Source: Paenibacillus bovis (GTDB taxonomy: Bacteria > Bacillota > Bacilli > Bacillales > Bacillaceae_C). Taken from it: 64,000 bases of DNA. Every line of letters begins with the position of its first letter. Positions within the stretch are counted from its first letter, which is position 1. The notes beneath the pieces are model-generated. The model saw nothing but the letters and a program-made list of their open reading frames with translations. It made no database searches and was not told the origin of the DNA. Positions 14,035 to 61,441 of the stretch are shown one piece after another. Location: positions 186,001 to 250,000 of the forward strand of contig VEFU01000001.1 of NCBI GenBank assembly GCA_007679095.1, read 5' to 3'. Both the position numbers and the translations under genes were made by a program.

Positions 14035-15015
14035 TTACAACCACTTCTGCAAATCATGTAACGAAAGTTGGTATGCTCTGCCTTTAGTGCTTCCTTTGTA
14101 AGGTAGTTTTAATGATCGAAGTAAGCGGGAAACTACATATATAGAAGAATGTTGGATGAAAGCTCTACATTGTTGATTGGTTATCGTGGCTCCGATCAAT
14201 AGAAAGTAATCCATTATCGCTTGAATAAAAGCTTTATCATTTTCTATCCCGCACTGTTGGCATTTCCATGTTCTATCTACTTTTACTATTGATAGAGACA
14301 TGCAACGGTCACAGTATAGTCCAGGTAAAATTTCATCTATGGAGATTTGGAATTGAGATAGAATATCAGGTTGTGAAGGGGTATGAAACTTTAGTAATAA
14401 TCGAGTAATTTTTTGTAACTCTCTATCATCTAGTATATCTGTTGGATGCTGTCTGCTATATGTCACAAACCTTGGGAGGATGGCAGGATTACGAATTACT
14501 TTTTGTTTGGCTAAATGATTTTGAGAGTTTATTTCAATTTTGGAGGATGGATTCGTTACAACTACGAATGAGGTATTGGGGACGGTTTTATTTAAGTGCT
14601 TTTTCAACAAGTTATCTAAGTGATATTGCTGATTTTGTACTTGAACAATTGGGTCAGGGAAAATTTCTTCTTTTTCCTCATATGTCCGAACCAATTGATT
14701 AAAATCGAAAAATAAAGTACCCAACATATTCTTTGCTTCATAAATAATAAAATAGCGGCGTGATAATAAGAGAATATCAATTTGAAAGTAGGTATCTTTG
14801 GAGATCGGAATACGGAGGTCTTGAAAAATGTAGTAATTTTCTGGAGGTAACTGTGCTAAATAATAATCGAGGCTTTCTTCACCACGATAACCAGCGTAGC
14901 TTCTTACCAATTCTTCTCTAATCTTCGGTCTTTTCGGATGATTCTCAGGGAGCCTCCTAAGCAACGCTTCCAATATAAGTATTTTAATTGGTATCGTTCT
15001 ATTCTTTTTGATCAT
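14035..15015 (-). CDS. NERD-domain nuclease-like protein with C-terminal zinc ribbon (paralogue 1)
   Basis: A 326-residue protein. The NERD (nuclease-related) domain spans about residues 40-160, with PD-(D/E)xK-type residues intact: D80 in FQID and E93-x-K95 in YEAKN. A zinc ribbon follows (C235-x2-C238, C252-x2-C255), then a helical, possibly winged-helix tail ending in STKGRAYQLS. The ATG at 15015 follows AGAGGTGG; an earlier in-frame ATG at 15042 has no ribosome binding site. It is a clear paralogue of the gene at 48473-49432, with co-linear domains and shared motifs (GEE, QID, CDRC, LLRS/ILRS, KGR.Y). The large 21-bp-spaced repeat array begins about 145 bp upstream. The function is unknown; a role in binding or cutting DNA, perhaps at the array, is inference. 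Confidence 0.8.
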   Translation of the reverse strand: MIKKNRTIPIKILILEALLRRLPENHPKRPKIREELVRSYAGYRGEESLDYYLAQLPPENYYIFQDLRIPISKDTYFQIDILLLSRRYFIIYEAKNMLGTLFFDFNQLVRTYEEKEEIFPDPIVQVQNQQYHLDNLLKKHLNKTVPNTSFVVVTNPSSKIEINSQNHLAKQKVIRNPAILPRFVTYSRQHPTDILDDRELQKITRLLLKFHTPSQPDILSQFQISIDEILPGLYCDRCMSLSIVKVDRTWKCQQCGIENDKAFIQAIMDYFLLIGATITNQQCRAFIQHSSIYVVSRLLRSLKLPYKGSTKGRAYQLSLHDLQKWL

Positions 15016-15158
15016 TCTACCACCTCTATTTAATTTGTTCATAATTTACTTCTTCATTAATAACAAAATTCCTGCTAAATCGACAAAATATTTATGAGAG
15101 ATTTTTAGTAAGGGATTGTTTGTGAAGGATGGTGATTTGGTTTATGGGGTTGGATTGG

Positions 15159-16305
15159 TATTCTTGCGGGTTTGTTTGATATTCTTGCGAGTACACTCAT
15201 TTTTTTTGCGGTGTGCTGAGATTCTTGCAGATTCACCCGATATTCTTGCGCATTCACTCCATATTCTTGCGACTACTGCTCTCTTTCTTGCGGAACATCC
15301 CACTTTTCTTGCTACTGCACACTATATTCTTGCGGAGAACATCCATTCTTGCTACTTCACCCGGTATTCTTGCGCATTCACTTCATATTCTTGCGACTAC
15401 TGCTCATATTCTTGCGACTACCACTACTTTTCTTGCGGATACACATGATATTTTTGCAGCGCACATCCATTCTTGCTGGTTCACCCGGTATTCTTGCGCA
15501 TTCACTTCATATTCTTGCAACTACTGCTCATATTCTTGCGACTACCACTACTTTTCTTGCGGATACACAGGATATTTTTGCGGAGCACATCCATTCTTGC
15601 TACTTCACCCGATATTCTTGCGCATTCACTCCATATTCTTGCGACTACTGCTCACATTCTTGCGGAACATTCCACTTTTCTTGCGAATAAACACTATATT
15701 CTTGCAGCGCACATCCATTCTTGCAGATTCACCCGATATTCTTGCGCATTCACTCCATATTCTTGCGACTACTGCTCTCTTTCTTGCGGAACATCCTACT
15801 TTTCTTGCGGATACACACTATATTCTTGCGGAGCACATCCATTCTTGCTACTTCACCCGATATTCTTGCGCATTCACCTCATATTCTTGCGACTACTGCT
15901 CTCTTTCTTGCGGAACATCCCACTTTTCTTGCTACTGCACACTATATTCTTGCGGAGCACATCCATTCTTGCTACTTCACCCGGTATTCTTGCGCATTCT
16001 CTTCATATTCTTGCGACTACTGCTCTCTTTCTTGCGGAACATCCCACTTTTCTTGCTACTGCACACTATATTCTTGCGGAGCACATCCATTCTTGCTACT
16101 TCACCCGGTATTCTTGCGCATTCTCTTCATATTCTTGCGACTACTGCTCACATTCTTGCGCAAACCACCACTTTTCTTGCGAATAAACACTATATTCTTG
16201 CGGCACACATCCATTCTTGCAAATCCACTCGATATTCTTGCAACCTCACCTCATATTCTTGCGGCAACTCACCATTTTCTTGCACACCCCACTACTTGCG
16301 AGCAC
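15159..16305. repeat. Nested tandem repeat array: about 55 TATTCTTGCG cores, 21-bp step, 124-bp superunit
   Basis: The core TATTCTTGCG (CGCAAGAATA on the NERD gene strand) recurs every 21 bp with 11-bp spacers, with one 19-bp step every sixth unit. This makes an exact 124-bp superunit. The unit-leading (C/G)ATTCTTGC core lies at 15220, 15344, 15468, 15592, 15716, 15840, 15964, 16088 and 16212, and three further cores (15159, 15180, 15201) precede the first. Spacers at equal positions in the superunit are conserved, which points to growth by unequal crossover or slippage. All three plus-strand frames stay open only because 21 is a multiple of 3 and the unit lacks stops. The 19-bp step rotates the frame each superunit, so protein coding is unlikely. 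Confidence 0.93.
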
Positions 16306-48146: not shown

Positions 48147-48289
48147 TATAAAAAATACCCCTTTCCTCACTACCCATAGTTTAGCGGAAAAAGAGTTTTT
48201 TCAACCATCGCTTTATCTTTCAGTTTTATTACATGTTTGTAAGGTTAGTCAGCTATTTAGTAAGTTACTAGATAGCTGACTCGCGGAAA

Positions 48290-48472
48290 CTTGCTCGGTT
48301 CTCTCGGTTGAAGGGGAGTTTCTCGCGATTTTCTCGTTTTTCTCGCGATTTTTTAAAATTTATTCGCGATTGTAAGGCACTTTCTCGCGATTCGTTTTAT
48401 TTCTCGCGATCGCAAGGCATAATCTCTCGATAACAAGGCGAAGACAAATTCTCGCGACAACGAGATATACCC
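48290..48472. repeat. Short-repeat array 2: TTCTCGCGATT cores at 21-bp steps
   Basis: Cores aligned on TCTCGCGAT start at 48321, 48341, 48362, 48383, 48402, 48423 and 48450, giving steps of 20, 21, 21, 19, 21 and 27 bp. Weaker cores (CTCGCGG, GCTCGG, TCTCGG) precede from 48280. Some spacers share an AAGGC word (TGTAAGGCAC, CGCAAGGCAT, AACAAGGCGA). Read on the strand of the adjacent NERD gene, the core is CGCGAGAA, one transition from the CGCAAGAA of array 1. The array ends directly at the 3' end of the NERD paralogue. No coding potential is seen. Confidence 0.85.
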
Positions 48473-49432
48473 TTAAATGAACTTGCTAAAATCCATCGCG
48501 TATGTTCTGCCTTTGGAGATTCCTTCACTTATTAAATCCATGCTTCGTAGTATTCTGGTTGACGTATCTATGTTTATATGTAAGAATTCACGGCAATCCT
48601 TGTTTGTCATTTTCCCTCCAAATAGTAAAAACCAATCTCTAACTGCGTTTATGTGGGCATTTTTGCTAGTGTGATTACAGTGCGAGCAATGCCAACCTTT
48701 TTTACTTATTCTTTGCATCCCAACGTAGCGACATCTATCACAAATTACGCCTGTTTGAAAGTCATGGTTTTGAATTTTATACGTTTGCGAAAGTGGGTTT
48801 GGAATATAAATTTGATGACTATTTATCATAGAAGTACATAACCAATCTAAATCTTTTTCATTAAGTATTGGCCTATTTTGAGGGATCTTTCTAATGTAGG
48901 ATGGAATTAAGTTGGGAAAGAGAATGGGAGTACTTTTAGGAGGAACTAAAACTATTTGCTTTGGATAAGCAAGTACGACGACTCCAATTACAGGGATATT
49001 AATACCTTTCGACTGCAGCCAGAGATCCAACAACTCACTATTTCTTTCGACTTGGGCTGCTGGGCAATCAAATGCATCTACTTGTCCATCATCTCTTTCT
49101 CTTATTAATTGTCTTGGATTCTCTCGAAAAGTTAGTTTTCCTGAAATGTTTTTCACTTCAAAAAGAATAGCATAAAATTGCGTTAAAAATAATGAATCAA
49201 TTTGAAATGTCGTGGCTGAGTGAAGGGATAAGTCATGAAGGATACGGTGTTGGAAGGGAAAGCTGTGATTTTGGAATACTCTCTCTACTCTTTCCTCACC
49301 AGCAATGCCTGCTTGTTTGGAAGTATAGTTGGAGGACAGGATTGGATACTGTGGATGACTCTCGTCTACCCGTAAAATACCTGCCTGCAAGCTTAATAGA
49401 GAGAGCGATTCAGAACGATATTTTACTATGAT
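48473..49432 (-). CDS. NERD-domain nuclease-like protein with C-terminal zinc ribbon (paralogue 2)
   Basis: About 319 residues, co-linear with the gene at 14035-15015. The NERD domain has D79 (FQID) and E92-x-K94 (FEVKN); then come a zinc ribbon (CDRC...CSHC) and a helical tail ending ISKGRTYAMDF. A perfect AGGAGG (about 49443-49448) points to a start near 49432, but the in-frame codons there are ATC (49432) and ATA (49429). These align exactly with the ATG-ATC start of paralogue 1. The frame upstream stays open to an ATG at 49486, which has only a weak site. The gene therefore uses a near-cognate start or has lost its ATG. The repeat array 2 adjoins its 3' end. Confidence 0.72.
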   Translation of the reverse strand: MIVKYRSESLSLLSLQAGILRVDESHPQYPILSSNYTSKQAGIAGEERVERVFQNHSFPFQHRILHDLSLHSATTFQIDSLFLTQFYAILFEVKNISGKLTFRENPRQLIRERDDGQVDAFDCPAAQVERNSELLDLWLQSKGINIPVIGVVVLAYPKQIVLVPPKSTPILFPNLIPSYIRKIPQNRPILNEKDLDWLCTSMINSHQIYIPNPLSQTYKIQNHDFQTGVICDRCRYVGMQRISKKGWHCSHCNHTSKNAHINAVRDWFLLFGGKMTNKDCREFLHINIDTSTRILRSMDLISEGISKGRTYAMDFSKFI

Positions 49433-49500
49433 TTGATTTGCACCTCCTAATATAATTAATGAAATAGTAGCACAATTCGAACACATTTACCACACTGAAT

Positions 49501-61045: not shown

Positions 61046-61129
61046 AATAAAACCCTCCCTCCATCCTCTTACAACCTATGCAAAAGCCCATTCATCCGTT
61101 ATTTATTTAAACGAAGTAACTCAAGTCAC

Positions 61130-61441
61130 AACCGATTTGAACGGAAGAAGTGGTGAGAATGGTCGAGAGAATCGTCATCACGACCGATGTATACCAAACT
61201 AGCAATGAAATCGGTCAAGAAACACGTTGTCATAACCGATTTGAATGTAAGATGTGATGAGAATGGTTGAGAGCACCATTATCACGACCGATGTGAATCA
61301 AACTAGCAATGAAATCGGTCAAGAGACAGTCTGTCACAACCGATTTGAACGGAAGAAGTGGTGAGAATGGTCGAGAGAATCGTCATCACGACCGATGTAT
61401 ACCAAACTAGCAATGAAATCGGTCAAGAAACAGTCTGTCGG
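61130..61441. repeat. Tandem array: three 104-bp units, each two diverged 52-bp half-units
   Basis: AACCGATTTGAA starts each unit at 61130, 61234 and 61338, exactly 104 bp apart. Units 1 and 3 are nearly identical, while unit 2 is diverged. Within each unit a related half begins GACCGATGT exactly 52 bp later, so there are six 52-bp repeats led by RACCGAT. Each unit also carries the inverse AAATCGGT. 52 bp is close to five helical turns. No open frame runs through it and no gene is in 61046-61516. Confidence 0.9.

Follow-up and report, generated by a model that had tools for sequence, protein, structure and literature searches.

A long array of phased direct repeats lies upstream of a NERD-L nuclease gene in the 64,000-nucleotide stretch of Paenibacillus bovis DNA that was analysed (the window; Table 1), and comparative sequence statistics suggest, with a probability of about 0.85, that it is an iteron-like cis address array of that nuclease. 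NERD-L denotes a subfamily of NERD proteins of ~325-350 aa with a Zn-ribbon plus an HTH tail. Nearly every NERD-L gene sampled in the order was found to be flanked by its own phased direct repeats. It appears fairly probable that these pairs belong to a large class of chromosomal systems in Bacillales that has so far gone undescribed. Each system would consist of a single gene, for a predicted site-specific PD-(D/E)XK nuclease, together with the phased address array that goes with it; its specificity would follow a residue-to-base code that can be read, a genome would have several such pairs independent of one another, and secondary arrays would have been copied to other intergenic sites. No description linking NERD genes to repeats was found in an incomplete collection of open-access papers.

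Table 1. Positions of NERD-L genes and repeat arrays in the window.
Feature	Position	Strand	Remarks
NERD-L nuclease gene	14035..15042	minus	335 aa; predicted PD-(D/E)XK-type residues, zinc ribbon, winged-helix-like C-terminal domain
Gap from NERD-L start codon to first core	15043..15160		would hold the putative promoter
Iteron-like array	15161..16283	(-) in NERD-L sense	55 cores, gaps 21x5+19
Degenerate iteron array	48282..48456	minus	core ATCGCGAGAAA, 19-21 bp steps; just downstream of second paralogue
Second NERD-L paralogue	48473..49486	minus	32% identical to first NERD-L
52/104-bp-period array	61125..61439		about five helical turns; found by TRF; unit likeness judged by eye

The window array begins 119 bp upstream of the NERD-L start codon, and core starts run from 15161 to 16277 with gaps of 21,21,19,(21x5,19)x8,21,21,21 bp. 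Read on the minus strand, in the direction of the NERD-L gene, the core is CGCAAGAATA; the plus strand has TATTCTTGCG. An exact 124-bp superunit of five 21-bp steps and one 19-bp step had been noted in the sequence, and this was borne out by leading cores at 15222+124n (n=0..8); the nine-fold 124-bp spacing was correct, but the starting position of 15220 had been counted two bases early. The three cores ahead of the first superunit follow the 21-21-19 order claimed for them, and periodicity analysis, proposed as a check, gave a period of 124 with 8.4 copies and 89% matches in Tandem Repeats Finder (TRF). The estimate of about 55 cores agrees with the 55 counted, but a single core sequence had been given for all of them and the exact 10-mer TATTCTTGCG occurs in only 25. 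The sequence ATTCTTGC is present in 39 of the 55, and the robust core is TT(C/T)TTGC (52 TTCTTGC and 3 TTTTTGC).

Across superunits, conservation was 0.979 in core columns versus 0.873 in spacer columns. The pattern TTCTTGC-N14-TTCTTGC has 42 matches in the window and none in 100 dinucleotide shuffles, which excludes a chance origin. A coding repeat was also ruled out, as the steps of 124, 101, 82 and 19 bp are not multiples of 3 and shift the reading frame. The doubt that the array might be an artefact of assembly was answered by the presence of this core in an array on each of three other contigs, hence it is not an isolated artefact. Elsewhere, the contigs of loci L321, L415 and L389 stop near NERD-L genes, as expected if arrays break short-read assemblies, and NERD-L arrays may be under-counted owing to such breaks.

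The product of the adjacent gene matches the NERD family (Pfam PF08378) with 67.5 bits against a gathering score of 22.1, and all 30 NERD-L members tested also match PF08378; NERD and a weak Zn-ribbon were the only Pfam matches. The PD-(D/E)XK-type residues of the window protein are E55, D89, E102-x-K104 and Q116, and across 30 sequences E55, K104 and Q116 do not vary while conservation of D89 and E102 is at least 90%. The zinc ribbon is formed by C244/C247/C261/C264, and a winged-helix-like C-terminal domain occupies residues about 269-335 and includes the putative specificity residues I301, R306 and T319. The winged-helix fold is predicted from sequence and covariation. For two NERD-L sequences AlphaFold gave low-confidence models (pLDDT 41 and 51), too poor for a fold search, and no solved structural relative was found. 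The neighbouring genes in the window are rlmA, topB, htrA and genes for a PPIase and a two-component system. The gene had no match to a Rep family in profile searches and its context is chromosomal. A high rate of NERD-L pseudogenes, considered at one stage, was dropped as the in-frame stops lay partly upstream of the true start.

The window protein has a match in 313 of the 397 genomes of the order sampled, and NERD-L loci were gathered by similarity to it, so the sample may be biased. In the genus, arrays phased at 20/21 bp were found beside 21 of 25 NERD-L loci and in 0 of 30 acetyltransferase neighbourhoods, for which gene ends were approximated rather than annotated; the cores differ between loci. 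Order-wide, TRF detected arrays at 84 of 124 NERD-L genes versus 1 of 51 short-NERD genes (Fisher 2e-17). A 7-mer lag test on an order-wide sample placed ~20/21-bp-phased repeats within 450 bp of 119 of 121 NERD-L genes, compared with 5/51 short-NERD genes, 4/30 acetyltransferase genes and 5/121 NERD-L genes at control lags. At TRF-negative NERD-L loci, the lag-21 peak reached 247 over a background of ~2, and exact 7-mer recurrences were in large excess at 20/21, 40-42 and 61-63 bp. Array density was 22 per 10 kb within 100 bp of a NERD-L gene and 0.1 beyond 1.6 kb. The association is confined to the NERD-L subfamily, and short NERD proteins have no link to arrays. A phased array can hold up to ~58 cores.

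On the NERD-L coding strand the core consensus is TnGCnAATAAA, which is asymmetric, and 101 of 117 arrays have it on that strand (p = 3e-16; the EM run was given no gene orientation). Each NERD-L lineage has a private core, common to orthologues and different among the paralogues of one genome. For example, genome G135 encodes seven NERD-L paralogues with seven different cores, and orthologues in G281 that are 80-99% identical to these keep the core with 0-2 changes. A Mantel test of protein against core distance over all pairs, which is dominated by saturated pairs and includes one truncated sequence, gave a weak correlation because cores saturate below about 60% identity.

Residues of the protein were also compared with bases of the core. 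About 6300 residue-base pairs were scanned, the motif registers having been set independently of the proteins, and dereplication at 60% identity left 77 proteins. In window numbering, the strongest pairs were residue 306 with motif position 2 (Z 17.6; 13.6 dereplicated), residue 301 with position 6 (Z 13.2; 10.1 dereplicated) and residue 319 with position 8 (Z 9.6; 7.7 dereplicated), followed by residue 320 with position 10 (Z 5.3 dereplicated), and none of the four was equalled in 2000 permutations. The top-scoring pairs all fall within the last 35 residues of NERD-L. K306 goes with G in 29/31 cases and R306 with C/T in 21/24, R301 with C in 15/17 and I/V301 with A in 16/16, T319 with A in 17/18 and N319 with T in 12/13. 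Such a pattern would be expected if the variable half of the core were read by a recognition helix (301-306) and the AT-rich half by a wing (319-321).

The window protein, with R306, I301 and T319 beside cores that have C, A and A, fits this code but was part of the data set. The second paralogue in the window was held out of the code data; the equivalents of these residues are R306, I301 and S319, and its CGCGAGAAA cores have C, A and A at the three coded positions, matching the code prediction. Its degenerate array was missed by TRF and seen by inspection, and the coordinates were converted by hand from minus-strand offsets. The original prediction of protein-binding iterons placed on one face of the DNA is thus strongly supported, with the adjacent NERD-L protein, whose helix and wing residues covary with the core, as candidate binder, and NERD-L very probably binds its own array.

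A neutral minisatellite grown by slippage, with no bound protein, is scarcely credible for these arrays. The superunit structure does imply tandem duplication, but the core is conserved while the spacers drift, the same core is common to several loci, and the linkage to one gene subfamily is universal. Residue-base covariation refutes it as a complete explanation.

Among 81 arrays with six or more units, the mean spacing was 20.47 +/- 0.48 bp. It had been left open whether the conserved 19-bp step is a functional or a purely historical phase change. Arrays of pure 21-bp steps (L359, L354) and pure 20-bp steps (L226) exist, and a functional phase change is not supported as a general rule; compensation of helical phase by the 19-bp step was rejected on the same grounds, and the step does not seem to be required for function. 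Steps of 19 bp also recur in unrelated arrays. The step in the window array is probably historical and best read as inherited through duplication of a six-core superunit, the 124-bp superunit being a likely secondary amplification unit. The second array-bearing NERD-L gene of this genome, L225 (C478:56648-57622), has the core GCCAGTAA, yet its array has a 124-bp superunit like that of the window; a common amplification history, the sole account offered, may explain a superunit common to arrays with different cores.

The three further arrays with the window core in the same genome are intergenic and lie on contigs C331, C343 and C478. Their spacers have diverged; the superunits measure 103/124 bp at C331 and 124 bp at C343, and at C478 corresponding cores are 124 bp apart. 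Arrays with TTCTTGC were absent from all 15 congeners examined, and when the whole order was searched by pattern, TTNTTGC arrays turned up in several families. However, TTNTTGC was rejected as one universal motif, as arrays with 21-bp phasing but different cores were recovered in a control with permuted cores, and the array class is therefore defined by phasing and not by one sequence. Arrays away from NERD-L genes (trans arrays) carry the core of a cis array in G000, G082, G187, G281 and G295; in G290 this holds in part, and in G371 the match between the trans core and a cis core is close but inexact. In G135 (L242:3554-3762 and L400), the cis core is now GGCTACAAA while most trans arrays keep GGCAACAAA, and one trans array contains a block of the new core, so that core replacement is possibly in progress. 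At C331 the TTCTTGC array is followed directly by a 52-bp repeat array (CACTGGGCACGATGAAGC; L250:7836-8119), and at C478 it is directly preceded by a different short direct repeat (GATGGGGCGGAGTGATTCTTGATTGG...; L005:660-910).

Trans arrays are intergenic and mostly in convergent or tandem gene contexts. A transcription-linked signal was considered for them and found to be a weak bias only (7 sense versus 4 antisense in tandem contexts), as was a leading-strand signal (17 of 24 leading). The arrays could be chromosome-structuring sites, centromere-like or loop anchors, bound by NERD-L, in keeping with phased arrays of such length and with the leaning of trans arrays to the leading strand. This seems quite improbable, as that bias is weak, private cores turn over rapidly and trans arrays are patchy among close species, as in the 15 congeners above.

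Repeats were upstream only at 55 of the 121 NERD-L loci, downstream only at 31 and on both sides at 34. Alternatively, NERD-L might bind the array solely to regulate its own promoter, and expansions and trans arrays would then be by-products. The excess of upstream arrays (34 versus 14 downstream in a 75-locus sample), typically about 80 bp before the gene, is consistent with such an autoregulatory operator. It is nonetheless an unlikely account, as the loci with repeats downstream only have no recurrent cores upstream, core orientation is kept downstream too (39 of 49 arrays), and trans arrays lie away from NERD-L genes.

For the cis address array, the following mechanism is proposed. The C-terminal domain, a predicted winged helix, would contact the variable, GC-containing half of the core through its recognition helix and the AT-rich half through its wing. 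NERD-L protomers, spaced by two helical turns, would occupy the same face of the DNA and bind cooperatively, which would allow a row of cores to be told apart from the thousands of single cores that occur by chance. The PD-(D/E)XK domain may then nick or cut the bound array, or the bound array may hold the nuclease in check. Nuclease action at arrays could cause them to expand and to be copied into further intergenic positions, which would give trans arrays with the same core, and arrays may spread selfishly, although no empty site, target duplication or movement event was seen. NERD-L pairs above 65% identity have neighbours in common in 45 of 53 cases, and pairs below 65% rarely do. Pairs above this level thus mostly keep their chromosomal place and movement is slow; the rlmA/topB neighbourhood of the window gene was found at no other sampled NERD-L locus, which together with neighbour sharing indicates that relocation happens, slowly.

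As to purpose, a self-maintaining nuclease/repeat pair with such array expansion and copying, comparable to RAYT/REPIN, is tentatively favoured. Next in rank, though rather doubtful, is a defence nuclease, in which the host array would sequester or license an enzyme that degrades DNA, entry of a phage or plasmid would lead to release or amplification of this enzyme, and core diversification would reflect an arms race. NERD domains occur in the defence proteins PglW and MAD6 (weak profile matches) and genomes have several private NERD-L paralogues, both consistent with a defence role. However, no defence genes are among the identified window neighbours (rlmA, topB, PPIase, two-component system), there was no full-length match to any PADLOC model, and NERD-L was not found in viral contigs. 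Autoregulation ranks below defence, and chromosome structure below both.

Arrays of another kind were observed near other NERD genes. The unit of the 52/104-bp array in the window resembles, by eye only, that of an array beside another NERD-domain gene in the same genome (C11, L455). At L461 (C481:952-1746) and L249:10145-11072, a NERD-domain gene (~310 aa) is adjoined by a 52-bp array with the inverted repeat GATTCCCAT...ATGGGAATC, which also forms a second array on contig C343, and 52-53-bp arrays near NERD genes are present at L349, L350, L307 and L333. These observations suggest that a second subfamily of NERD proteins has palindromic arrays with a period of five turns.

If the proposed class is real, it would account for tandem repeats of a widespread 'unexplained' type between genes of Bacillales and provide a function-bearing context for the poorly understood NERD domain. 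It would also represent a natural nuclease family whose DNA specificity apparently resides in three or four residues and is documented beside each gene, and the number of genomes with a match to the window protein implies hundreds of natural protein-site pairs from which the code could be learned.

Among known systems, plasmid origins with iterons have, next to the Rep gene, direct repeats of 17-22 bp that all point the same way and are read by the winged-helix domains of Rep; Rep-iteron binding is cooperative and does not survive separation of the iterons by half a turn of the helix (PMC4980987). NERD-L arrays are likewise direct repeats in the same orientation, integral helical turns apart, beside the gene of a putative reader, and covariation supports iteron-type reading by the adjacent gene's protein. 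They differ in being chromosomal with no sign of a replicon, in the PD-(D/E)XK-type NERD nuclease in place of Rep, in reaching ~58 cores and in having same-core arrays elsewhere in the genome.

RAYTs are HUH (Y1) enzymes. In RAYT/REPIN systems a nuclease-type gene has its own repeats in flanking non-coding DNA, with repeats of the same family dispersed extragenically; the REPs are palindromic and scattered, either singly or in inverted doublets, and the RAYT phylogeny indicates slow, largely vertical inheritance (PMC3116915). NERD-L shares its own flanking repeats, extragenic repeats of the same family and slow movement, but is an unrelated enzyme with no HUH (Y1) match in Pfam, and its repeats are phased direct tandem arrays with an asymmetric rather than palindromic core. 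Homing endonucleases resemble NERD-L as a predicted site-specific nuclease with a private recognition sequence near the gene, whereas NERD-L cores are repeated, lie intact beside the gene rather than split, and occur on both sides at 34 of 121 loci. The N-terminal domain of NERD-L belongs to the same family as the PF08378 parts of PglW and MAD6, and NERD-L is set apart from short NERD proteins, of which 1 in 51 had an array, by its Zn-ribbon plus HTH tail.
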